DNA of 59,021 bases from Sulfuricurvum sp. 17-40-25 (lineage in GTDB: Bacteria; Campylobacterota; Campylobacteria; Campylobacterales; Sulfurimonadaceae), in contig NCIJ01000012.1 of the NCBI GenBank assembly GCA_002282015.1, forward strand, positions 1 to 59,021, given 5' to 3'. The notes beneath the pieces were generated by a model, which worked only from the letters and a program-made list of their open reading frames with translations, was not told the origin of the DNA and ran no database searches. The translations under genes and the position numbers were made by a program. Below, piece after piece: positions 1 through 13,012 of the stretch (its first letter is position 1; each line of letters opens with the position of its first letter).

Positions 1-1
1 T

Positions 2-550
2 AGTTCATCGGGACAGAATTTACAATCACAAATAGAAGCACTTACAAAAGCGGGATGTGAAAAAATATTCCAAGAAAAAATGAGTGGCACGCAAACTACG
101 AATAGGATTGAACTGCAAAACTGTTTGGATTTTTGCAGAGAGGGTGATGAGTTTTACGTTACCCGTCTTGATAGATGCTCTCGTTCAGTAAAAGATTTAC
201 ATGAAATCATAGATACACTCAATCGCAACGGTGTGGCATTTAAAGCAACTGAGCAAGATTTGGATACTTCAAGCAGTGCGGGTAGATTAATGATCGGGTT
301 GTTATCAATAGTATCTGCATTTGAAACTGATCTTCGGGCGGAAAGACAAGCCGAAGGTATAGCATCTGCGTTAAAGAGAGGTGTTAAATTTGGGAGAGAA
401 TCTAAGCTGAATAATGAAAAAGTCATTGAAGCCATCAGGATGCAAGAGGATGGCATGACCAACCAACAAATAGCAGATAAATTCGAGATTGGACGAAGCA
501 CTTTGTTGCGGTATATTTCTGAGTATAAGAAAAGCATACTGTTAAAATAA
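2..550 (+). CDS. Serine recombinase/resolvase (5' truncated by window edge)
   Basis: The reading frame is open from base 2, upstream of the first ATG at 80, and those codons read SSSGQNLQSQIEALTKAGC, the typical N-terminus of Tn3-type resolvases just after the YARV segment. The first Ser (bases 2-4) aligns with the catalytic serine, so only about nine residues are missing. The catalytic core continues with LDRCSRSVKDL and ends with the long E helix (FETDLRAERQAEGI, GVKFGR). A C-terminal helix-turn-helix follows (MTNQQIADKFEIGRSTLLRYI). Known role of the family: resolution or inversion of DNA at paired sites through a phosphoserine link. It probably serves the left island or a nested transposon; its site was not found. 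Confidence 0.9.
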   Translation, partial: SSSGQNLQSQIEALTKAGCEKIFQEKMSGTQTTNRIELQNCLDFCREGDEFYVTRLDRCSRSVKDLHEIIDTLNRNGVAFKATEQDLDTSSSAGRLMIGLLSIVSAFETDLRAERQAEGIASALKRGVKFGRESKLNNEKVIEAIRMQEDGMTNQQIADKFEIGRSTLLRYISEYKKSILLK

Positions 551-590
551 AGCTATAATATTTTTTAATTTATGTTTAGGGGTGAGATGA

Positions 591-1196
591 ATGGCAAAAA
601 AACCGCCAAATAGTGATGATGTAATAAAAGCGTATAATTTATGTAGCAAAGATATAAAAGATTATTATTGTGAGTTGCTTTCACTGCTCCAAAATGATAG
701 TATTTCCGATGAGACTGCTATTTCATATTGTTTTTTTAAACTAGAGCAAGCCTCGCACAGAATATTATATGGTGGTTTAGTTGGAGTGCATCATGCAGAA
801 AAAACGTTGGCGATGCAAGCGGTAGATGAACAACATTTAACTAGGCAGGGATTTATAGACTTTTGTATTAAGATTTTTAATGATGAAGATACTAAAAGTA
901 ATAATATCAACGACTCTATTTTGTCAATTATTAAATCTGCTGAAAAAGTTAGAGATAGAGTGATGCATGGTAAAAATATCAAACCCGCTGAAATAAGAAA
1001 AGAGATCACTGTTGTTTTAATGTATTCAACTAAATTAAATGATGAAATAAAACGAATTGCTGGATTTACTCCATTTGGTAGTATGAAGGGGTTTAAAGGA
1101 AGATCTAAATCACTCAATGAAAAGACCACGAAATGGCTTTTGAAGGGTCTTGGATTTACGAATACTAAGACGGTTAAAAATTCTCTCAGCATCTAG
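591..1196 (+). CDS. Hypothetical protein with HEPN-like RxxxxH motif
   Basis: 201 aa, 40 bp after the resolvase stop and on the same strand, with a GGGGTGAGATGA stretch before the ATG. No family is recognised with confidence. It is predicted to be largely helical and carries KVRDRVMHGKNIKP near residue 125, an R-x4-H arrangement in a helical setting as in HEPN ribonuclease-type domains. The C-terminus is basic (GSMKGFKGRSKSLNEKTTKW). No signal peptide or membrane segment is seen. The R-x4-H motif alone is weak evidence, so RNase or toxin activity is only inferred. Its position in an island with other toxin-like genes fits a defence or stabilisation role. Confidence 0.55.
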   Translation: MAKKPPNSDDVIKAYNLCSKDIKDYYCELLSLLQNDSISDETAISYCFFKLEQASHRILYGGLVGVHHAEKTLAMQAVDEQHLTRQGFIDFCIKIFNDEDTKSNNINDSILSIIKSAEKVRDRVMHGKNIKPAEIRKEITVVLMYSTKLNDEIKRIAGFTPFGSMKGFKGRSKSLNEKTTKWLLKGLGFTNTKTVKNSLSI

Positions 1197-1255
1197 CAAT
1201 TACTAAGCTGATGCGCAAGAATTTATTTCATCCGCTAGTTTTTGGAGTAGAGTGA

Positions 1256-1852
1256 TTATTTTATCAAATTTAAGATGAACATGAATTGTTTCAAAGGCTC
1301 ATAATTACCGTTATCTGCCTCTTTGAGTGAAGAAATATAATCAGCTCTTGCGGAAGATACTTCGGTAATATTTCCACCCCAAGAAAGTGATGGATACCCC
1401 ATTTTCAGCAACCATAAATCCGTCACAAGTCTTGCCCATCTGCCGTTACCATTAGGAAATGGATGGATTTTTACTAGTGTATGATGAAGCCGTGTAGCAG
1501 TATCACGGTAATCCCACTCTTTTTCCCAATATTTTAAATCATCTTGCAGTTGATAAAGTCGTTGATGAATCTGATTTGCTTCAGCGCCAATGGAAGTTTG
1601 AGTGGTTCGAAATTCACCTGCCCAACTCCATACATCACCCAACATCTCTTTATGCAGTTTACGAAAAAAGCTCAGATCAAAAGTTACCTTTTTGAGAGCC
1701 GATGGGTTGAGGGTGTATTTGATGTAAGCTTTGAGGATATTTTGGGCTTCGGCATCATCGAGTTGAGCACGAGTGGTAATCTTTTTGAGTTTTAGACCTG
1801 ATATATCATCGAGGGGAGTTTCCCCCTCTTTATCAAATGTGATCATGCCCAT
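1256..1852 (-). CDS. Fic-domain protein, 'mobile mystery protein B' type
   Basis: 198 aa. It carries the Fic core HPFPNGNGRWARL near residue 130, with the catalytic His and the GNGR phosphate-binding loop. The usual acidic residue (HPFxD/EGNGR) is Asn here, as is typical of the 'mobile mystery protein B' group. Upstream lies the usual LHKEMLGDVWSWAGEFR segment. Family knowledge: Fic enzymes attach AMP or other nucleotides to target proteins. The substrate is unknown. The start at 1852 overlaps the end of the XRE gene (1843) by 10 nt, so the two are translationally coupled, with the regulator first. This is the standard A/B pair found on mobile elements and probably acts as a toxin-antitoxin-like module. 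Confidence 0.85.
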   Translation of the reverse strand: MGMITFDKEGETPLDDISGLKLKKITTRAQLDDAEAQNILKAYIKYTLNPSALKKVTFDLSFFRKLHKEMLGDVWSWAGEFRTTQTSIGAEANQIHQRLYQLQDDLKYWEKEWDYRDTATRLHHTLVKIHPFPNGNGRWARLVTDLWLLKMGYPSLSWGGNITEVSSARADYISSLKEADNGNYEPLKQFMFILNLIK

Positions 1853-2217
1853 ACTTGCGATTTTGGCATTTTGGAGATCATTGCTTTGGCTTGGGTTAGC
1901 ATTTTACGTTGTGCATCATCTCTGGGAGACTGATTTTCAAGCGCAGAAGTTTGGATAACTCTATTTACAATCTCATGGGCTTTTTTATCAACTTGAGCTT
2001 GATAAAGAGCTTTTGGAGAGTGTTGCGGTTTGATAGTAATTTCGCAATCCAATGCAACGGCTATTTTATCGAGCGTATCAAGTGAGATATCGTGTCCTGC
2101 AAATGCTCGTTTTACTGTGGCTATTCCAACTCCTGCACGGGATGATATGGCTTCATAAGGAATAGACAGAGCCTCTTTTTGCTTCTTGAGTTCGGAGAGT
2201 ATAAGTGTTTTAAACAT
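1843..2217 (-). CDS. XRE-family regulator, 'mobile mystery protein A' type (putative antitoxin)
   Basis: 124 aa from the ATG at 2217. That start is chosen over the TTG at 2238 because an AAGAAG ribosome-binding sequence sits just before it and the TTG lies inside an operator palindrome. The helix-turn-helix is visible as IPYEAISSRAGVGIATVKRAFAGHDISLDTLDKIAVALDC (residues about 15-55). The C-terminal helix (ALYQAQVDKKAHEIVNRVIQTSALENQ) resembles mobile mystery protein A. It is the first gene of the pair with the Fic protein, and two palindromes lie directly upstream, suggesting autorepression. Whether it neutralises the Fic protein directly or acts only on transcription cannot be told. Confidence 0.75.
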   Translation of the reverse strand: MFKTLILSELKKQKEALSIPYEAISSRAGVGIATVKRAFAGHDISLDTLDKIAVALDCEITIKPQHSPKALYQAQVDKKAHEIVNRVIQTSALENQSPRDDAQRKMLTQAKAMISKMPKSQVWA

Positions 2218-2231
2218 CTTGACTTCTTTTG

Positions 2232-2280
2232 GTATCAATAATGATACTATATGTTTTTAGTATCGTATCATTTATGATAC
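2232..2280. promoter_or_regulatory. Twin palindromic operators upstream of the XRE/Fic pair
   Basis: Two inverted repeats share the arms GTATCA/TGATAC with 4-bp centres: GTATCAATAATGATAC at 2232-2247 and GTATCATTTATGATAC at 2265-2280. Between them GATACTA (2243-2249) and TAGTATC (2258-2264) form a third, overlapping dyad. Centres are 33 bp apart, about three helical turns. They lie 15-65 bp upstream of the regulator's ATG and between it and the integrase end, so binding by the XRE protein is the simplest reading. Confidence 0.7.
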
Positions 2281-2313
2281 TACTTGTCAAGTATATTTTC
2301 TAGATTTATTTCA

Positions 2314-3501
2314 TTAGATACTGTATTCGTTCACATCCTCAAGCTCTTTGAGTTGTTCTTCAACTGCCATTTGAGTAAAAGTTTTAGAATCCTTGGAACG
2401 TAGTTTTTCCCAGTAATCCTCATAAACCCTTATAATATCAACGAGTTCAATGTTGTGATAACGAGCATTCATATTTGATGTTCTATTACTATGGCTCAAA
2501 CAAGCTGCTCCCACAAAATCCATACCGTATTTTCTACTTTGAATACTGATGATAAAGTTTCTGTTATCGTGAGTACGGATGGGATAGTCTATAGCAAGAG
2601 CTTTTAAACTAAGTTTGCACTTGGTATCAATCATTTGTGCGTATTTATCCAGATAGATGCGACTGTTATACTTGAACACTTTACCGCTTCCTGTGCCAAT
2701 AGTATTAAGCACTTCTTTTGGTAATGGAAATCTTTCTGCAACTGCATCGGGGTGTAGTTTTGTATATGATTTAGTTGTTCCAGCTCTTACATTGACGATG
2801 CCATCAACAATGTCTTCATATTTAATTTCTAATATCTCCCCAATTCGACGAGCGCACATGATTGAGATAAGAAACGCCATTCTGTGATTGGCTTCTTCAT
2901 TTAATGCAGCATTGTAAATCTTTTTTATAGCATCAATTAGAGGTTCTGCGACTCTATCGACAAGAGCTGGTTTGGGTTGATCTTCGCCGAATTTAATCAG
3001 TTCTAAAATATTTCTACGAGTAACGTCATCGGAAAATGCTTCTTTAAAAACTGGGCTGAGAATAACTTTAGCTTTCTTGACGGTGTTTGGGGATAATTTC
3101 AATGCTTCCATATTTGTACGGATTTTAATTAGATGATCTTTGGTAACTTTATCAATTTTTAAATGTCCAATAATTGGCTTGATATGCTTATTGTAAGTAG
3201 CTGTAGAATTTTTTCTATACCCATCATTGCATCTACTTAAATACTCTGTCATTAGTGAATCAATTTTATCCGATTTTATGGAAAATACATCATTTCCCTT
3301 GGATAGTTCAATTTTTATTTCGGACAGTTTATTAAAAGCTTGCTGAGGATTTTTCACACCGTAAAGCTTAGTGAGATTTTTCTCTCCGTATCTAGTCCCA
3401 TTATGAGAAAATACAGCTATATAATTCACCGTACCATCAAGCATTTCAAGTTCTTTAATACCAGCGTATTTAGTGGGTTTTAATTGATTCTTGCGCGCCA
3501 T
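2314..3501 (-). CDS. Tyrosine recombinase (integrase of the left island)
   Basis: 395 aa, ATG at 3501. An N-terminal arm/SAM-like DNA-binding region (LMTEYLSRCNDGYRKNSTATYNKHIKPIIGHLKI, about 83-120) precedes the catalytic domain. Catalytic signature residues are recognisable: CARRIGEIL (first Arg, about residue 218), THDNRNF (HxxR form), CLSHSN (second His) and NARYHN (Tyr candidate near 348). Family role: integration and excision between att sites through a 3'-phosphotyrosine link. The start codon lies 147 bp from the att copy at 3648-3693, so it is the likely integrase of the left island. It points away from the att site, unlike the right-island integrase. Confidence 0.9.
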   Translation of the reverse strand: MARKNQLKPTKYAGIKELEMLDGTVNYIAVFSHNGTRYGEKNLTKLYGVKNPQQAFNKLSEIKIELSKGNDVFSIKSDKIDSLMTEYLSRCNDGYRKNSTATYNKHIKPIIGHLKIDKVTKDHLIKIRTNMEALKLSPNTVKKAKVILSPVFKEAFSDDVTRRNILELIKFGEDQPKPALVDRVAEPLIDAIKKIYNAALNEEANHRMAFLISIMCARRIGEILEIKYEDIVDGIVNVRAGTTKSYTKLHPDAVAERFPLPKEVLNTIGTGSGKVFKYNSRIYLDKYAQMIDTKCKLSLKALAIDYPIRTHDNRNFIISIQSRKYGMDFVGAACLSHSNRTSNMNARYHNIELVDIIRVYEDYWEKLRSKDSKTFTQMAVEEQLKELEDVNEYSI

Positions 3502-3587
3502 ACTTACCCTTATTCTGAGTTATGTAAAAAGTTATGTAGCTTGATTGTATCATTTTTATGGCTGGTAGAACTTTATAGATGTAGTAA

Positions 3588-3605
3588 ACCCCTATAATAA
3601 GGGGT
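3588..3605. repeat. Inverted repeat ACCCCT...AGGGGT between integrase and att
   Basis: ACCCCT (3588-3593) and AGGGGT (3600-3605) flank the 6-nt loop ATAATA. It lies 42 bp left of the att core and upstream of the minus-strand integrase, so it is not that gene's terminator. It may be a recombinase/excisionase binding site or a transcription barrier. Similar CCCTA/TAGGG hairpins follow the other two recombinase genes (6396-6421 and 12929-12942). Apart from this and the att core, the 3502-3834 gap shows nothing coding. Confidence 0.5.
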
Positions 3606-3647
3606 ATTGATTTCTAATTTATTGTATTATATCGTTGAGGGATAGTT

Positions 3648-3693
3648 TCGACAAGGTAGGGGTCACTGGTTCGAGTCCAGTTGGGACCACCAT
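3648..3693 (+). repeat. att site: 46-bp duplicate of a tRNA 3' end (left/middle copy)
   Basis: Identical over 46 bp to 12967-13012. The sequence folds as the 3' half of a tRNA: anticodon-loop GAC, 3' anticodon stem GGTAG, variable loop GGGTC, T-arm ACTGG-TTCGAGT-CCAGT, acceptor strand TGGGACC, discriminator A and CCA. The anticodon reading GAC and the GGGTC variable loop point to tRNA-Val(GAC). No 5' half (GGTCCCA...) is present upstream, so this is a fragment and not a tRNA gene. It marks the junction between the two islands. Confidence 0.9.
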
Positions 3694-5155: not shown

Positions 5156-5518
5156 ATGTTCACACAAAAGAAAAAAAACTATTACAGCACCATTCTGGGG
5201 TTTAAAAGTCCCAACGATTTTGACCTATTCGCCAAACGATATCTTGGGTTTTTAGAGCAGGACGACTTAACCAAAAATCGCATTATGAGCGGATTTTTTA
5301 TTCTGCTTGAAATCCAGAAAGAGACGTTTAAAAATAAAAATATGATTATCTATGATGGTATTAAAAACCAACACGTTAAAAAATACGCCTCTGAAATTCT
5401 TGACCTGCGAAAACAAGGCAATGGCAGTCAATCTATTGTCAGCTACTTATATGAAAACCATCGGGTTGAAGTTTCCCGTGGCACAGTTGAAAAATTCTAT
5501 AAAAATAATGGACTGTAA
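5156..5518 (+). CDS. Putative DNA-binding protein with C-terminal HTH-like region
   Basis: 120 aa with a strong AGGAGG ribosome-binding site. The N-terminal half is helical and basic (MFTQKKKNYYSTILGFKSPNDFDLFAKRYLG). The C-terminal part (ASEILDLRKQGNGSQSIVSYLYENHRVEVSRGTVEKFYKNNG, about 78-118) has the spacing of a resolvase/transposase-like helix-turn-helix with a recognition helix VSRGTVEKFYK. No catalytic motif is present. It is followed within a few bases by a tyrosine recombinase gene, so it may be that enzyme's accessory factor or a plasmid maintenance protein. No specific family is recognised. Confidence 0.6.
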   Translation: MFTQKKKNYYSTILGFKSPNDFDLFAKRYLGFLEQDDLTKNRIMSGFFILLEIQKETFKNKNMIIYDGIKNQHVKKYASEILDLRKQGNGSQSIVSYLYENHRVEVSRGTVEKFYKNNGL

Positions 5519-5522
5519 GACA

Positions 5523-6389
5523 ATGGCAAATCTAAAAGGGGGAACTTATCAAAAACAAGCAAAGGACGCTTTTCACAGACTTCAATCGTTTGGTGTTGGG
5601 AGATTAAATAAAGAAGACCACTTAACCCATTCAAGCAAACTTGCCGAAAAGCGTGAAATGTATTTAAGAGATATTAGCAGTTATTTAGAACGTAATGAAA
5701 TCGAAGGAAAGTTAAATGTTTTAATGAACCAAGAAAATCTCAATAGCTTCTTTATGGAACGATTGGAGGATTTGGCTATCAAGACACAGGAAGATTATTT
5801 GCGTGGGTTCTCGTCTATGCTACAAGGCTTACACGAGCAGAATATATTTATTCCCTTACATACTGAAAACAGTGATTATTTTAACGATTATGTATCACAG
5901 ATAAAACAAGACCAGCCAGACGAAATCATTGAAAACCGCTATATTGAGAATGCCCCAATGATGATTGAAGTTCTCTATGAGGACAGATACATCTCTGGGC
6001 TTATCGCCCAAACTCAATATGAACTTGGCCTCAGACAGGCAGAAGCGTTTGAATTGATTAAAAATCCTGAAAAATATATTGGCGATGGGATTGTCTCTAA
6101 TCTTATAGGCAAAGGCAATCACTCTTATGAACCAAAGGAAATTCCCTTCGAGTTGGAACAAAAAATATTAAATTATCAAGGAGACCTTATCGACAAAAGC
6201 ACCTATTACAGAGATTTACACAAATACGATCTATCGTCTCACGATTTTAGATTTACCCACGCCCGTGATAGTTATGAAGAAAAAATAGCATCTGGCATGA
6301 ACGAGCAGGATGCCAAGCTTTCTGTGAGTGAAGAGCTAAATCACAAACGGGAGGCGATAACGGATTACTATCTTATTCGCACCACTTAA
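5523..6389 (+). CDS. Tyrosine recombinase, small plasmid type
   Basis: 288 aa from ATG 5523, 4 nt after the preceding stop and after GTAAGA. The open frame extends upstream to 5352, but that part lies in another frame of the previous gene; an alternative ATG is at 5508. The catalytic set of tyrosine recombinases is recognisable though diverged: LGLRQAEAFEL (first Arg), SHDFRFTHAR (HxxR), EELNHKREAITDYYL (second His and Tyr). The N-terminal half (YLRDISSYLERN..., LEDLAIKTQEDYLRGFSSML) suits a core-binding domain. Probable role: dimer resolution or site-specific recombination of the plasmid-like element, distinct from the integrase at 11770-12885. Confidence 0.75.
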   Translation: MANLKGGTYQKQAKDAFHRLQSFGVGRLNKEDHLTHSSKLAEKREMYLRDISSYLERNEIEGKLNVLMNQENLNSFFMERLEDLAIKTQEDYLRGFSSMLQGLHEQNIFIPLHTENSDYFNDYVSQIKQDQPDEIIENRYIENAPMMIEVLYEDRYISGLIAQTQYELGLRQAEAFELIKNPEKYIGDGIVSNLIGKGNHSYEPKEIPFELEQKILNYQGDLIDKSTYYRDLHKYDLSSHDFRFTHARDSYEEKIASGMNEQDAKLSVSEELNHKREAITDYYLIRTT

Positions 6390-6694: not shown

Positions 6695-7828
6695 ATGACA
6701 AAATTTCTAACAACTACAATTTCAAGTGATGATGAGCTAAAAGAGCTTTTAATAAAAAACCTGCCGAGAAAATTAAAGGCAGGTAATGAGAAAGAAACAT
6801 CCAATATAATAAATTATCCATCAGCAATAGCGTTGGACAATACCTATTTTATGAACTTCAATTCAAAAGAACAAATCTCTATTATGGTGTTTGATATTGA
6901 CAAGGTGGGCAATAAAACAGCATTGGACTATTTTAAAAATATAAACGGTCTATTGACCTTTATTGTAAAAACAATAGGATTTGAACCAAGTTATATTTTA
7001 CAGACGACAAAAGGGTTTCATTTCGGGTATCACCTGAAGAATCACGTATTTACAAACCAACCAAAAGCAGTTGAATATCTGCGTAATATAAAAAAGGCTT
7101 TGACGGAACTATTGGGATGTGACCCAAATGCCTCACATCGTCTTAATGGTGTTTGGAGAAATCCGCTTCTTCATCCCCATTATTATTCTGGGGCAATAAA
7201 CTATGAACTGAGTGATTTTAGAGAGTTCCTGCCACTACGTGTGAATGTCAAAAGAACCTATACAACAAAAGTGAAAATAGACGAAAGTCTTCTTATTGAA
7301 GGCAATCGCAATGAGGCACTGTTTCGATACGCTATGAAATTTGCGAAGGGTCAAGCATCATTAACAGTAGAACAAATTGTTGATTTTTTAGTAGGGGTTA
7401 ATGCACAATGCTCTCAACCATTAGAGGCGGATGAGTTGAATATAATCGCTTCATCCGTTTATGGTTATTGGTGTAAAGGAGACATAAGATTTGGAACACT
7501 CGCAGAAAGGGAACCAACCCCCAATGAGGGAATTATGGAGTTTCCAAAAATGGCAGGGTTATCACTTGAAGAATATCAAGCAGAGGTCAAACGCAGACAA
7601 AAACTTTCTGCTCAACGCACCAATCAAATAAAAGACAAAGAGAAGGCATTAAATTCTCTGGCCGCGGCCAGAGAATGTTCAGCACAAAAACGACGAGATG
7701 AGAATGAAAAAAAAGTTCTTGGAGCAATAGAGCAGTTAGAAAAGGAGGGTAAAAAGATTACTATTTCCGCAATAAGTAGAATTGCGGGGATTGATAGGAG
7801 GACTACAAGTAAGTTCCAACAGCAGTGA
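6695..7828 (+). CDS. ColE2-like plasmid replication initiator (Rep/primase)
   Basis: 377 aa. Region 55-200 resembles the replicase/AEP-type primase domain: VFDIDKVG (acidic pair, about 65-72), LQTTKGFHFGYHLKN, and NASHRLNGVWRNPLLHPH. A PriCT-1-like segment follows at about 203-260 (EGNRNEALFRYAMKFAKGQ...ELNIIASSVYGYW). The C-terminus is charged and ends in a helix-turn-helix (KKITISAISRIAGIDRRTTSKF). This order matches ColE2-type Rep, which binds the origin and makes its own primer. It is the main evidence that the island is plasmid-derived. A 24-bp perfect palindrome lies within its coding sequence. In ColE2 the origin lies just downstream of rep; here only 17 bp separate rep from the convergent next gene. 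Confidence 0.85.
   Translation: MTKFLTTTISSDDELKELLIKNLPRKLKAGNEKETSNIINYPSAIALDNTYFMNFNSKEQISIMVFDIDKVGNKTALDYFKNINGLLTFIVKTIGFEPSYILQTTKGFHFGYHLKNHVFTNQPKAVEYLRNIKKALTELLGCDPNASHRLNGVWRNPLLHPHYYSGAINYELSDFREFLPLRVNVKRTYTTKVKIDESLLIEGNRNEALFRYAMKFAKGQASLTVEQIVDFLVGVNAQCSQPLEADELNIIASSVYGYWCKGDIRFGTLAEREPTPNEGIMEFPKMAGLSLEEYQAEVKRRQKLSAQRTNQIKDKEKALNSLAAARECSAQKRRDENEKKVLGAIEQLEKEGKKITISAISRIAGIDRRTTSKFQQQ
7653..7676. repeat. 24-bp perfect GC-centred palindrome inside rep
   Basis: Half-site ATTCTCTGGCCG (7653-7664) is followed directly by its exact reverse complement (7665-7676) with no spacer. It codes for NSLAAARE in the linker between the PriCT-like part and the C-terminal helix-turn-helix. 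Its GGCCGCGGCC centre contrasts with the AT-rich gene around it. It could be a binding or resolution site, or a cruciform. Confidence 0.9.
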
Positions 7829-7847
7829 AGTACTGCTAGGGTTTTTT
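7821..7847 (+). terminator. Intrinsic terminator of rep
   Basis: AGCAGT (7821-7826) and ACTGCT (7832-7837) enclose GAAGT; AGGG and a six-T run (7842-7847) follow. The stem starts within the last codons of rep and the T-run touches the end of the convergent gene. Confidence 0.8.
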
Positions 7848-9213
7848 ATATGTATTGTTGAATGACATCATAAAGCGAATAGTTTTTAGTGTTGTAAATC
7901 GCTTTTTCAATATTCGTGTCATTTACTTTGTATTTGACAGCATAGCCGTAATTGATTTTTATTGCCTGTGCTTTACTTTTTGTTACTTTATCAAAATTAG
8001 ATTTTTCACTCATTGCAGAAGTAATTAAAGAATAGCGTGTTCCATTGTCTAAATCTCTTGCTTCAGGCGCAAGTTCTTTATCCATATTAGAAATATTAAA
8101 AACTAAATTTTGGTAATAGCTTGTCAAGGATTTCACAGTGATGAACGATTGGATTTTATTGGACATGATACCATTTACACTCAAGCCATTATCTGTTTTC
8201 ATAATCATATTGAAATTGGCATCTTGAAACGTATATTCTTTCGGAACCATTCCTTTAACGTTGGCATAATCAATCGTAATAGGGATATGAATAGTAATTT
8301 TTTTACCTGGAGCATAAGGGATTTCTTGCATTGGTGCTTTTATCGTTGCGTAGAATGAGACATTATTATTGTGTTGGATAATTTTACTGCTTCCTCCCGC
8401 AAGTTCATAACTTTTGAAATTTGAATCAAGATATTTTTTGTATTCAAGAATATCTTTTACATATTGCTCATCAATTTTTGTTTTTAGGCTCTCAACTTTA
8501 GATGAAGCATCTTCTTCGGACGATATTATCGAATGGTAGTCATAGTTTCTTTTTTCTGGGGCATGAAGAACAATGCTATATCCCCCATCTATGCTTTTAT
8601 TGCCAAAAAATCCACTCTTGTCGGTTGTTGAATATTTTAACTCAATTAAATTTTTATTATTTTGGTATTCAGTTAGCGATTGATCATACATCTTATCTAT
8701 AGATGTTTTCTTCACATCAGCATAATTGAAAATTTCAAGTAGTTTTTCTCGATATTTTTCAAGATTATTATTTTTTACTACTTCCATAAATGTTTCATTA
8801 TCAAATGATTTTCCATCCATGTAAATAGCTTTCTGTTGAACTAGTGCACCCAGAGGAGTCATTATTGAATTTATAAGGCCGGTTGCCACCATACCGACTA
8901 CGTGTCGCTTTGAAAAATTACTTTTACAAAAATTACTTTGCGAGTAATCTACATAGCTACCATTGACAAAAATTTTACCACAGTCTTGTGCATTCGTCGG
9001 TATTTGATAATCGGGGTAAAACCCATCTTTTGTTATTCGAATAATTTCCATGTCATTAGCTAGATTTTCTCTATTCATGGAAACTTTAGATAATGTTTTC
9101 CCCTGACTTAAGTAAGCATATCCAAGCGTTGTGGAATCAGATAATGAATTCCCAAAAGAACTTTCACATAATAATCCCGATGTAATCATTCCAATTAATA
9201 GTTGTTTTTTCAC
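7846..9213 (-). CDS. Exported protein of unknown function (last gene of envelope operon)
   Basis: 455 aa with a signal peptide (MKKQLLIGMITSGLLCESSFGNS, cleavage probably near residue 21). A hydrophobic segment HVVGMVATGLINSIMTPLGALV (about 104-125) could be a transmembrane or pore-like helix. The rest is soluble-looking and rich in Asn, Lys and Ser, with predicted beta-strand stretches such as ITIHIPITIDYANVKG. Cysteines at NAQDCGKIF and SNFCKSNF could form a disulfide. No family is recognised. It follows the lipoprotein gene by 76 bp on the same strand. A surface or periplasmic role is inferred, possibly entry exclusion, adhesion or an export accessory. Confidence 0.6.
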   Translation of the reverse strand: MKKQLLIGMITSGLLCESSFGNSLSDSTTLGYAYLSQGKTLSKVSMNRENLANDMEIIRITKDGFYPDYQIPTNAQDCGKIFVNGSYVDYSQSNFCKSNFSKRHVVGMVATGLINSIMTPLGALVQQKAIYMDGKSFDNETFMEVVKNNNLEKYREKLLEIFNYADVKKTSIDKMYDQSLTEYQNNKNLIELKYSTTDKSGFFGNKSIDGGYSIVLHAPEKRNYDYHSIISSEEDASSKVESLKTKIDEQYVKDILEYKKYLDSNFKSYELAGGSSKIIQHNNNVSFYATIKAPMQEIPYAPGKKITIHIPITIDYANVKGMVPKEYTFQDANFNMIMKTDNGLSVNGIMSNKIQSFITVKSLTSYYQNLVFNISNMDKELAPEARDLDNGTRYSLITSAMSEKSNFDKVTKSKAQAIKINYGYAVKYKVNDTNIEKAIYNTKNYSLYDVIQQYI

Positions 9214-9289
9214 ACTTTTCCTTTTTTATTTTAAAATCTATTTTTCTTTTGAAAAAGAATGACTTTTATTGACGGATGAATCATAATAA

Positions 9290-9805
9290 TTATTTCAACT
9301 CTGCCAATGTTTCTTTTGCATTCCAAAGAGGAATTTCTGTTGAGGTTTCTTTAAACATAACAATCTTTAATGTTGTCCCACTGTCAACCCTTGTGGCGAA
9401 GATTGAACAATGTCCACGTACTTTCTGCAGTCCAGGAGTATGACAATAATCCATTACGCCTTTGTAGGTTGTAAAAGGAAACCCTTCCATATTGTTTGTT
9501 CCATCGTTAATAACTGCAAAATATTGATTGCCAGTAAATAATGTTTCTTCTGCAGCACGCTTAAGTACTTCATGAAACTCGTAGGGCTTTACATACTGTT
9601 CTTCCCAATTTGCATATTTTGGAGGAACTCCTCGGGCAGACAATTCTACTTTAAGTTTTGGGTCACCAAAAATAGATACTTCGACTTCATAGACTCCACT
9701 GTCAAGTTTCGTTACAGCAGGCATTTTTGCAGGTCTTATAATGCTACATCCGTCGAATAGCAATACTCCTAATATCATTGAAAATACTAAATAACTTTTC
9801 TTCAT
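9290..9805 (-). CDS. Lipoprotein of unknown function
   Basis: 171 aa with a lipoprotein signal: MKKSYLVFSMILGVLLFDGCSI, lipobox LFDGC and Cys at residue 20. The mature part carries VYEVEVSIFGDPKLKVELSARGVPPKYANWEEQYVKPYEFHEVLKRAAEETL. The pattern of a short strand region followed by a helix with conserved-looking Trp/Tyr recalls small outer-membrane lipoproteins, but no family is assigned. It starts 4 bp after the stop of the gene at 9810-10427, so the two are tightly coupled. Two later cysteines (MDYCHTPG, RGHCSIF) may pair. It probably works with its two exported neighbours. Confidence 0.6.
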   Translation of the reverse strand: MKKSYLVFSMILGVLLFDGCSIIRPAKMPAVTKLDSGVYEVEVSIFGDPKLKVELSARGVPPKYANWEEQYVKPYEFHEVLKRAAEETLFTGNQYFAVINDGTNNMEGFPFTTYKGVMDYCHTPGLQKVRGHCSIFATRVDSGTTLKIVMFKETSTEIPLWNAKETLAELK

Positions 9806-9809
9806 CTAT

Positions 9810-10427
9810 TTACTCCTGCTCTTTCTTGGCCATAAATCCACGAATTTGAGATTCAGAATATCCTGCATCAGCATTACACACAAAAAATGTAATCATCTTT
9901 GAACTTGCCCCTTTTGTGTCTGTCAATTTCATAACTTTAACGTATTCATAGTCAGAATTCATATGATCTTTAATAGTAACTAGCCCTCCAAAAAAGAGTC
10001 CAATTCCTGCACCAGCTAAGCCTGCGCCCAATGCTTCAGAGCCTTTGCTTGCAATTGTCCCTGCGCTTTGTTGAAGACTTGATAGCGTGCCATTGGCTAC
10101 AGATGCAGAAAGATATTGAAGTGATGTTCGAGTGAGGGCATAGTAATCATTTGCCTTTCCGAAAAATATTTCTTCGCTCTTCGCTGACGTATTAACTTTT
10201 CCAAGCTTGAAAACATTAACTTTGTACATACTATAACCGTCAGATCTCTTCTCTGTTAGGACTGTTCCATAATTATGGTTCTTATCGTATGTTTTTGGGA
10301 AGTATTCATCTGATAATTTGGATGGGTTAAAATATTCAACTCCAAGCGGTCCAGTTCTTTTAACTCTTAAATCTTCTTCAGCAAGGAGGGAAGTAACAAT
10401 AAGAAGAGTAGTAATAATTATTTTCAT
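9810..10427 (-). CDS. Exported protein with glycine-zipper membrane segment (first gene of operon)
   Basis: 205 aa, ATG at 10427. The N-terminal signal (MKIIITTLLIVTSLLAEE) predicts cleavage around residue 16. Near 133-155 lies a glycine-rich hydrophobic helix, ALGAGLAGAGIGLFFGGLVTI, a typical glycine zipper as found in proteins that oligomerise in or span the envelope. The rest is polar with no recognised domain. It is the promoter-proximal gene of a three-gene leftward unit (this, the lipoprotein, the 455-aa protein). Signal peptide plus zipper suggests a periplasmic or inner-membrane assembly partner. No function is known. Confidence 0.6.
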   Translation of the reverse strand: MKIIITTLLIVTSLLAEEDLRVKRTGPLGVEYFNPSKLSDEYFPKTYDKNHNYGTVLTEKRSDGYSMYKVNVFKLGKVNTSAKSEEIFFGKANDYYALTRTSLQYLSASVANGTLSSLQQSAGTIASKGSEALGAGLAGAGIGLFFGGLVTIKDHMNSDYEYVKVMKLTDTKGASSKMITFFVCNADAGYSESQIRGFMAKKEQE

Positions 10428-10633
10428 AGGTTCCCTTATAGGTAAAAGTCATGTATTCTACATAAATATTAATAAAATTTATTAGATAAGAGCAGAAATA
10501 TTATTTGTAGAATAACGCTACAGTTTGTTTTAAGCAAATGTGTGTAATAATTCTTCAGTTGAGTTATTGGATAAATTACTCAACGGGTTATTTAAATTAG
10601 CATTGTTAATATATTTTGAGAAAGGGGTCAAAT
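10428..10633. promoter_or_regulatory. Divergent promoter region with two inverted repeats
   Basis: 206 bp between the leftward envelope operon and the rightward gene at 10634. It has long-range arms TATTCTAC (10454-10461) and GTAGAATA (10507-10514), and GTTGAGT (10558-10564) with ACTCAAC (10578-10584). These are plausible operators or back-to-back promoter parts; no regulator is identified. Confidence 0.4.
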
Positions 10634-11083
10634 ATGGATCTCGATTGTAAAATGATTTTTGATAGGAATATAACTTATATAGAAGATTGTATATTCACAT
10701 ATAAACTTAAGGCAACAAAAGACGAACTTTTAAAGCTATCTACAATTTATGTGAATAATCCAGTTGATTTAACTTTCCGAGTTTTTGGAGAATTGAAGCA
10801 CGAAGAACCTGTCGAAGTTTATGACAAGAAAACGGGTGAAGCAAAAGGATTAAAGCAGAAAGCTGTTTATAAAACGACTGCTATATATAACTTTTCAAAA
10901 AAGAAGGTTGATAGACATTCACTTGAAGAAATCAAAGAAGTCTATAGAGACTTTTTGAGATTATCTGACTATTTTGGTCAAATAAAGTTAATTGAAAAAA
11001 TCGAAGCAAAAGAGTTTAATACTACAGAGAATGACATCTTAGTCGAGAAATTTGTAGAAGTATATGAGGCGAGAGAAGTTTAG
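10634..11083 (+). CDS. Hypothetical protein
   Basis: 149 aa from ATG 10634, chosen because GAGAAAGGGG lies just upstream; the TTG at 10616 overlaps that ribosome-binding site. The protein is soluble, mixed charge, with no signal peptide or membrane helix. Visible features are a strand-rich middle (DLTFRVFGELKHEEPVEVYDKKTGEAKGLKQKAVYKTTAIYNF) and a helical end (SLEEIKEVYRDFLRLSDYFGQIKLIEKIE). No family is recognised. It is a single-gene unit closed by a strong terminator that begins in its last codons, and lies on the plasmid-like island divergent from the envelope operon. Confidence 0.6.
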   Translation: MDLDCKMIFDRNITYIEDCIFTYKLKATKDELLKLSTIYVNNPVDLTFRVFGELKHEEPVEVYDKKTGEAKGLKQKAVYKTTAIYNFSKKKVDRHSLEEIKEVYRDFLRLSDYFGQIKLIEKIEAKEFNTTENDILVEKFVEVYEAREV

Positions 11084-11509: not shown

Positions 11510-11773
11510 ATGAGTATGAATCCTGCCCAGAGCAGTTTAGAATATTTGGAATTAAAGGCATTGTTGCTTCAGCAGCAGGCACTTTTTAAAATGTTTATTC
11601 CAGTGAAGGCAAGCATTGCGCATTTAGCCAATATGACTGGGAAAAGTCGTCAAGCAATACGTCAGTATCTAATAGCCCATTTTGAGCCTGAGGTTGATTT
11701 TTGGGTTGAAAATGGGAAAATTTACGCATCCAAAGAGACAGCAGCTCAAATCATTAGCAGAGGTGCGAGATGA
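11510..11773 (+). CDS. Excisionase-like/HTH small protein
   Basis: 87 aa, ATG 11510 after a strong GGAGGTGA. A helix-turn-helix is visible at about 35-58 (ASIAHLANMTGKSRQAIRQYLIAHFEPEVDF) followed by a short wing-like segment (WVENGKIYASKETAAQII), the general layout of excisionase/AlpA-type proteins. Its end overlaps the integrase start by 4 nt (ATGA), so it is translationally coupled to the recombinase. Role inferred: recombination directionality factor or regulator of integrase synthesis. Confidence 0.7.
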   Translation: MSMNPAQSSLEYLELKALLLQQQALFKMFIPVKASIAHLANMTGKSRQAIRQYLIAHFEPEVDFWVENGKIYASKETAAQIISRGAR

Positions 11774-12885
11774 AAAGCAGAGGAGACGGAAGTTTTTTTG
11801 TAAGAGGTGAAACTTTATGGGTTCAAGGTTCCATTGAAGGCAAGTTCTTTAGAAAATCCACAGGGAAAAAAGCGACTAAGATGAATCTTGCTTGGTCTGT
11901 TAAACAACGTCCTCTTGAAGTTCTTGGCAAAATTGTTAGTAAGGGTGTAAAGCAAAAAAGTGAATACACCATCAAAGAATTAGGATATTTAGCTATTGAA
12001 GATTCAGCAGGTAAGCGTAGCGAGGAAGTTCAAAAAGATTACACCTCAATTTTTGAAAGACTGATTGTTCCGTTTTTTGAAAAGTATGCCCTTGAAGACA
12101 TTGGTATCAAAGAAATAGAGAGCTGGGAAAAATTACATTCTAACTTATCAGCGGATAGACGACGACGTGTCAGAAGAATTTTAAAAGACATTCTAAAAAA
12201 AGCTGTCAGATATAAGCTTATTGGTGAGAACCCACTGAATGACGCTGAACCGATTACGGAAACTTTTTCTGAAGATGATGAGGCAATCATAAAAGCATAT
12301 ACAACCAGTGAAATACGCTTGATAATAGATAGTGCAGAAGGTTGGTTAAAAGTCTATTTTGCGTTGCTTTTCACAACAGGAATGAGAGTTGGTGAAGTTT
12401 TAGGACTTGAAGTTACAGATATAGACTTTGAAAGAAAAGTGATAAATTTGAAGCAATCATTGACGCAGGGGAAAATAAAAAAATCATCACGACAAAAGAA
12501 TCACAAGCGAGAAGTGCATCTTATGCCTGAAGCATTAACATTGCTTCAAGAATATATTGAAAATACAAAAAGTGATAGATGGATTTTTGTATCGAAAAAG
12601 AATACTCCTCATTATGATAATGCCAATATTATCAGTCGCCATGTAAAACCACTATTTAAAAAGATTGGGGTTGAGTATAAAACGGTCAAAGCAACACGAA
12701 AAAGTTATGTATCAATTATGTATGATAGCAATATCCCCGAGTCATACATTCAAACCAATATAGGTCATGTAGTAGGCTCAGCAGTAACGAAAAAGTTTTA
12801 TTATAAATCTATTCATAATAACAGTGAAATCGCCACTCTTGCGAGCCAAGAGCTTGAAAAAAAGCTCAATGGAAATGGAAATTAA
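11770..12885 (+). CDS. Tyrosine recombinase (integrase of the right island)
   Basis: 371 aa. An N-terminal arm-binding-like part (GSFFVRGETLWVQGSIEGKFFRKSTGKKATK), a core-binding helical domain (about 75-175) and a catalytic domain are visible. Catalytic positions: TTGMRVGEVLGLEV (first Arg, about 206), the KATRKSY box (Arg kept, usual His replaced), NIGHVVGSAVTKKFYYKS (His and Tyr). The gene ends 81 bp before the att copy at 12967-13012, so it is the likely integrase of this island at the tRNA site. It is translationally coupled to the excisionase-like gene. Confidence 0.92.
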   Translation: MKSRGDGSFFVRGETLWVQGSIEGKFFRKSTGKKATKMNLAWSVKQRPLEVLGKIVSKGVKQKSEYTIKELGYLAIEDSAGKRSEEVQKDYTSIFERLIVPFFEKYALEDIGIKEIESWEKLHSNLSADRRRRVRRILKDILKKAVRYKLIGENPLNDAEPITETFSEDDEAIIKAYTTSEIRLIIDSAEGWLKVYFALLFTTGMRVGEVLGLEVTDIDFERKVINLKQSLTQGKIKKSSRQKNHKREVHLMPEALTLLQEYIENTKSDRWIFVSKKNTPHYDNANIISRHVKPLFKKIGVEYKTVKATRKSYVSIMYDSNIPESYIQTNIGHVVGSAVTKKFYYKSIHNNSEIATLASQELEKKLNGNGN

Positions 12886-12966: not shown

Positions 12967-13012
12967 TCGACAAGGTAGGGGTCACTGGTTCGAGTCCAGT
13001 TGGGACCACCAT
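12967..13012 (+). repeat. att site: 46-bp tRNA 3' end duplicate (right copy)
   Basis: Identical to 3648-3693. It contains the anticodon-loop remainder, T-arm, acceptor strand and CCA of a tRNA, probably tRNA-Val(GAC), with no 5' half upstream. It marks the return to the chromosomal backbone, which continues with the respiratory cluster. Confidence 0.9.

Follow-up and report, generated by a model that had tools for sequence, protein, structure and literature searches.

TraT is the surface exclusion protein of IncF plasmids, with homologues on chromosomes (PMC11733297, PMC12658005). The protein forms a decameric outer-membrane ring that blocks redundant conjugation, and the chromosomal TraT proteins are of unknown function (PMC11733297). 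IncC plasmids encode a surface-exclusion lipoprotein, Sfx, beside traN, and Sfx is also found on mobilizable elements, which the authors of that study regard as possibly the first case of exclusion by mobilizable elements (PMC11493245). In the present study, we describe a locus of Sulfuricurvum sp. 17-40-25 in which an exported glycine-zipper protein (zip) and a lipoprotein (lipo) are encoded by adjacent genes, followed by a third gene for an exported protein of 455 residues (p455). We propose that zip and lipo might constitute a two-gene envelope module of Campylobacterota mobile elements, involved in surface exclusion of the TraT type or in closely related mating interference, and that p455 represents separate cargo; we consider the chances of this reading to be about even.

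The window, i.e. the whole analysed stretch of 59,021 nucleotides, belongs to a draft genome of 50 contigs. The preliminary description placed the three genes on an island, and this island was confirmed as an integrated element of 9,273 bp (9.3 kb) between 46-bp perfect direct repeats (3648-3693 and 12967-13012, both on the plus strand), which correspond to the 3' half of a tRNA-Val(GAC) gene. The empty site was observed in a same-genus genome (G010, locus L041), in which the intact tRNA lies just upstream of a homologue of the first gene beyond the right end of the island. The G+C content is 33.8% in the element versus 40.7% in the chromosome on its right. A tyrosine integrase (11770-12885, plus strand; PF00589 E 8e-21, phrog_1 E 5e-40) is encoded beside the right repeat, and the start of this gene is overlapped by the reading frame of an 87-aa small protein (11510-11773, plus strand), which reads as HTH- or excisionase-like and gave sub-threshold matches only. 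The conserved core comprises genes for a Replicase/PriCT-type primase (6695-7828, plus strand, convergent with p455; PF03090 E 1e-5, PF08708 E 8e-4), a tyrosine-recombinase-like protein (5352-6389, plus strand, the conserved part starting near 5520) and a 120-aa protein (5156-5518, plus strand), whose gene accompanies that of the recombinase-like protein in related elements as well. These three genes recur together in two other loci (L037 and L038), and no homologue of the three-gene operon was found in either, the L037 contig ending right after the primase. Because the related core comes without the operon, the latter looks like cargo of the element. No capsid, mating or relaxase genes were found on the element, relaxases not having been specifically sought.

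Two further observations concern the recombinases of this region. First, the recombinase-like protein retains the residues R..HDFR..LN-H-(K/S)R..YYL across distant elements (window 5352-6389, plus strand; L037 1582-2451 and L038 10541-11401, both minus strand), lies far from the att site and adjoins the 120-aa protein and the primase each time; with a sub-threshold PF00589 match (E 0.03), this protein might act as a second recombinase or, alternatively, as a relaxase of recombinase-like type. Second, another integrated stretch (1-3647) borders the left side of this tRNA repeat and carries, at the edge of the contig, a serine recombinase, and further a Fic-type "mobile mystery protein B" (1256-1852, E 3e-52), a weak mystery-protein-A match (1843-2238) and a tyrosine integrase assigned by sequence reading (2314-3501). 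Two stretches abutting one tRNA repeat suggest tandem accretion at a single tRNA gene.

The three open reading frames are all present on the minus strand, at the positions and with the general characters previously given to them. The first gene of the pair, zip (9810-10427), encodes a 205-aa protein with a signal peptide, a GxxxGxxxG motif at residues 139-147 and a hydrophobic stretch at residues 132-150; an N-terminal insertion of approximately 45 residues distinguishes this protein from its homologues. The second, lipo (9290-9805), encodes a 171-aa lipoprotein with the lipobox LFDG-C20 and the conserved motifs YFAxxN...NN and PLWxxxExL. The third, p455 (7846-9213), starts with GTG, and its product has a signal-peptide-like N-terminus, two conserved cysteines (78 and 96) and one internal hydrophobic stretch (105-123), which is also present in both full-length homologues. 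A purine-rich, ribosome-site-like stretch is located 5' of all three starts. Across the shared intergenic region from zip, a 155-aa divergent gene (about 10616-11083, plus strand) matched no family over the cut-off. The preliminary description regarded the three genes as one leftward unit, which is firm for zip and lipo, separated by 4 bp; for p455 this status is only possible, because a gap of 76 bp and a promoter-like site (TTGGCA-16-TATGAT, 9307-9280), of a kind that is about as frequent in shuffled DNA, lie ahead of this gene. The statement that no family is recognised also stands, as none of the three proteins matched a family above the curated cut-offs of Pfam, PHROGs, PADLOC or NCBIfam, and the sole lead is a sub-threshold match of lipo to NF047637, a CC0125-type lipoprotein family. 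Weak Pfam matches of p455 or zip to Phage_int_SAM_1, T4_Gp59_N and DUF202 were far below the cut-off and were dropped. The pattern of selection supports a coding status for all three genes, and zip and lipo are regarded as coding because homologues exist in distant genomes.

Several results bear on the relationship between zip and lipo. Each gene was searched separately in 298 Campylobacterota genomes, which cover only part of the phylum. The lipo search recovered G311 (E 3e-12), and the zip search recovered the same G311 neighbourhood (E 1.4e-8) together with G335 (E 3e-12) and G302 (E 8e-9). In all three loci (L060 in G311, L061 in G335 and L062 in G302), zip is directly followed by lipo on the same strand and in the same order. 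The homology of both proteins persisted after removal of the signal peptides, and none of 50 shuffled queries per gene gave any match. Judged from these comparisons, zip and lipo are a true conserved pair. A further zip homologue (L122, 5534-5974) with a TTG start, apparently without a signal peptide and with no lipo beside it, is possibly a decayed copy.

The neighbourhoods of the pair are those of mobile DNA. L060 and the G302 loci (L062/L115) contain related genes, at 37-38% identity, for a GPA-type Rep (PF05840), an FtsK-like protein and a 578-aa integrase. In L061, a TraG_N gene (PF07916 E 3e-53), apparently interrupted by an IS, lies a few kb from the pair, and a gene for a TrwB-type coupling protein is found further on. 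Both traG and the coupling-protein gene of G335 (L061, L113) are split by apparent IS insertions, so this element may no longer transfer. An additional lipoprotein family is encoded before zip in L060 (7374-7892) and L062 (1431-1931), at 31% identity, with a weak PRK11667 match (NCBIfam, E 0.0012) for one member; no copy of this gene was seen in the window element.

The lipoprotein family extends beyond the pair. A profile search with lipo revealed further members in G125, G112 and G131. In the first of these (L063), the gene directly follows a TraT gene (PF05818 E 3e-27), and in the second (L064), it directly follows the C-terminal portion of a TraT gene (E 1.5e-18). When plasmids were searched by tblastn and viral contigs were scanned for zip and lipo, nothing emerged but pSULKU01 of Sulfuricurvum kujiense, the one record recovered by plasmid tblastn with the L064 lipoprotein, in which the lipo-family gene starts 11 bp after TraT (E 6e-79). 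In G131 (L079), the lipo-family gene has a TraN-like gene (PF06986 E 5e-4, slightly below the cut-off) on one side and a VirD4 gene on the other. A location on a mobile element or near conjugation genes was observed in the window element, L060, L061, L062 and L079. At the level of sequence profiles, lipo was shown to be homologous to lipoproteins encoded directly after TraT: the mature zip-linked and TraT-linked profiles aligned at 96.4% in hhalign (E 1.2e-9) compared with 0.1% for a reversed control, and the window lipo alone matched the TraT-linked profile at E 4e-8, the best of about 900 controls reaching 0.36. The pSULKU01 lipoprotein connects to the window lipo only through L064. Among the strong TraT loci with flanks scanned, 1 of 19 had an adjacent lipoprotein (L101, the same gene as L063), which makes the TraT-lipoprotein pairing a minority arrangement. 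Weak profile matches in G270, G093, G284, G087 and G010 were rejected, since they look like signal-peptide matches, some of them to Pal-like proteins; those in G087 and G010 vanished when the profile without the signal peptide was used.

The relationship between zip and TraT themselves is less clear-cut. Using hhalign, zip aligned with TraT at 54-63% over the glycine-rich stretch and the following D..(E)D..Y..V segment, versus 1-18% for reversed TraT; an earlier alignment, which used zip in full length and left pSULKU01 out, reached no more than 9%. When the zip profile was compared with 177,635 PDB sequences, TraT (9fsm) ranked second at a non-significant E of 0.23. A HMMER signal was dropped because reversed TraT equalled or outscored real TraT (22.3 bits for L090_rev, 15.8 bits for the best real TraT), suggesting that glycine-rich composition alone can yield such a signal. 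PF05818 gave no match at E<=1 for the window zip or three homologues, and zip has no lipobox, its sole cysteine being at position 184. The single-sequence AF2 model of zip (pLDDT 30) was unusable for comparison with the decameric cork or the beta-sandwich domain of TraT. Homology between zip and TraT is suggested, not established, and we stop short of calling zip a TraT because composition controls score as high, the lipobox is missing and PF05818 does not match. What we claim is that zip takes the position of TraT and might act in a similar way.

Herein, we propose a mechanism to describe how the pair might act, in which we infer membrane location, oligomerisation, the partnership between zip and lipo, and exclusion. 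First, zip, as an exported protein, would use its glycine-rich hairpin to form an oligomer located in or at the outer membrane. Second, lipo would be anchored by the lipidated Cys20 and would act together with zip. Third, by analogy, both proteins would act at the surface of a recipient and destabilise mating, so that the host cell would acquire competing conjugative elements poorly and the resident integrated element would be protected. It is probable that the pair contributes to blocking the entry of competing plasmids, a reading suggested by the gene neighbourhoods of the relatives, which include TraT, TraG, TraN-like and VirD4 genes. Of the functions offered in the preliminary description, exclusion is the one favoured by these neighbours, and nothing was found to back an export pore or a surface toxin.

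Glycine-zipper proteins and small lipoproteins are common parts of the envelope, and the pair might instead be a general module for envelope stability or stress, carried for the fitness of the host rather than for plasmid exclusion. The weak resemblance of lipo to the CC0125/CC1285 lipoproteins and the existence of chromosomal TraT homologues of unknown role (PMC11733297) are consistent with such a function. However, where the context is readable, the pair or the lipoprotein family is located on mobile DNA, on DNA linked to conjugation or next to TraT, with no evident housekeeping loci, and zip and lipo are missing from nearly all genomes searched; we therefore regard a general envelope role as possible but unlikely.

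Some prophage lipoproteins block phage adsorption or DNA entry. Superinfection exclusion, in which the exported pair would block these same steps, might be considered, since a lipoprotein and an exported membrane protein are carried here on an element with an integrase and a primase, a layout that, by inference, also occurs in phage satellites. However, the pair had no homologue in the IMG/VR contigs by the scans made, p455 had none in the phage records or viral contigs scanned, and the neighbours of the relatives are conjugation or integrative-element genes, with no recognised phage structural genes. A role against phages appears improbable by comparison with the proposed exclusion of plasmids.

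The preliminary description also suggested that all three genes cooperate in one envelope assembly, and p455 might then be an effector, an adhesin or a surface component mounted by the pair. The three genes share one strand, are closely spaced and all encode exported proteins, but 76 bp separate p455 from lipo, and the distribution of p455 is at odds with such a unit. Homologues of p455 were found in three genomes (G009, G032 and G360), two of the same genus (55% and 52% identity) and one, frame-broken, from another family; none of them is accompanied by the pair, and their contexts are unrelated, which is the outcome that the preliminary description named as refuting a functional unit. By sequence reading of the neighbours, the homologue in Sulfuricurvum sp. 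STB_35 (L004) stands alone between SelO-like and MutS/HNH-like genes, that in L005 between caspase-like and beta-barrel genes, and that in L011 beside a LysE-like gene. No convincing lipo was found in these three genomes, in which the profile search gave weak, mostly N-terminal matches, and the relatives set containing G009 and G032 gave no match when searched with zip or lipo as single sequences. Conversely, the other loci of the pair have no p455 homologue. A search for the three-gene set on other mobile elements thus returned, in the genomes covered, zip and lipo together and p455 never with them; the notion that mobile elements carry a functional envelope set survives for the pair and fails for p455, and a joint assembly of all three proteins is decidedly improbable. 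Because its homologues stand without the pair in unrelated settings and the pair occurs without p455, p455 appears to be separate, independent cargo on the same island, belonging to a family of exported proteins whose C-terminal domain is strongly conserved. The exported proteins do include a glycine-rich membrane segment, but a secreted toxin or an export pore made by the set is most improbable, since no toxin, immunity or secretion family was detected in Pfam, PHROGs, PADLOC or NCBIfam, no enzymatic motif was seen and there was no conserved immunity partner.

As judged from codon comparisons, p455 is under purifying selection, strongest at the C-terminus: the last 100 residues are 86-90% identical in amino-acid sequence to the L004 homologue, and the four-fold sites of this stretch match at only 9 of 27. 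Between pairs of homologues, the C-terminal codons (approximately 100) are about 72-90% conserved, far above the rest, and synonymous sites look saturated. The AF2 model of p455 was poor (mean pLDDT 50), and Foldseek with this model gave nothing at E<=0.001; profile matches in the PDB were at chance level and were dropped. In L005, the p455 homologue (1057-2514) and the adjoining beta-barrel-like gene (2616-3281) have near-identical N-terminal regions of about 38 residues (MKRSLFLGCLLVCSNVA...), which looks as though the beginning of either gene had been copied onto the other. The homologue in L011 (262-1775, G360) is frame-changed with stops, apparently a decaying copy.

Returning to plasmid exclusion by zip and lipo, we tentatively put forward a more specific hypothesis, held with less confidence than the general one: Campylobacterota may have a new two-component surface exclusion system, formed by a small TraT-like zip that is not lipidated (or by TraT itself) together with a lipoprotein dedicated to it. 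Small integrative elements that lack recognised conjugation genes would carry this system, and an element that is itself non-conjugative would thereby police conjugative entry. If the pair acts as proposed, the few surface-exclusion factors known to date would be joined by one made of two genes, and TraT might be expected to work with a partner protein in some lineages. Moreover, exclusion by non-conjugative elements, so far represented by Sfx-carrying elements in Gammaproteobacteria (PMC11493245), would extend to another phylum. The TraT-lipoprotein pair on pSULKU01 of S. kujiense DSM 16994 provides a named, cultured test case.

Compared with the described systems, the locus shows partial likeness to each. 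With the CC0125/CC1285 lipoproteins (NF047637), lipo shares a similar size and an alignable C-terminal half (E 0.008 for the window protein, 0.0018 for L063 and 1.4e-5 for L064), but scores 16.6 bits (25.6 for the best relative) against a curated cut-off of 40 bits. Like TraT, zip is exported, and its glycine-rich hydrophobic region with the D..(E)D..Y..V segment after it may correspond to that of TraT; TraT immediately precedes a lipo-family gene in three records, as zip precedes lipo; unlike TraT, zip has neither a lipobox nor a PF05818 match, nor a demonstrable N-terminal TraT domain. By description and gene context, lipo resembles Sfx in being a lipoprotein encoded on integrated mobile elements, and the lipo relative in L079 adjoins a TraN-like gene, as sfx adjoins traN. 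However, Sfx works as a single gene in reported assays (PMC11493245), whereas the system proposed here, known from sequence, would be a pair of genes.
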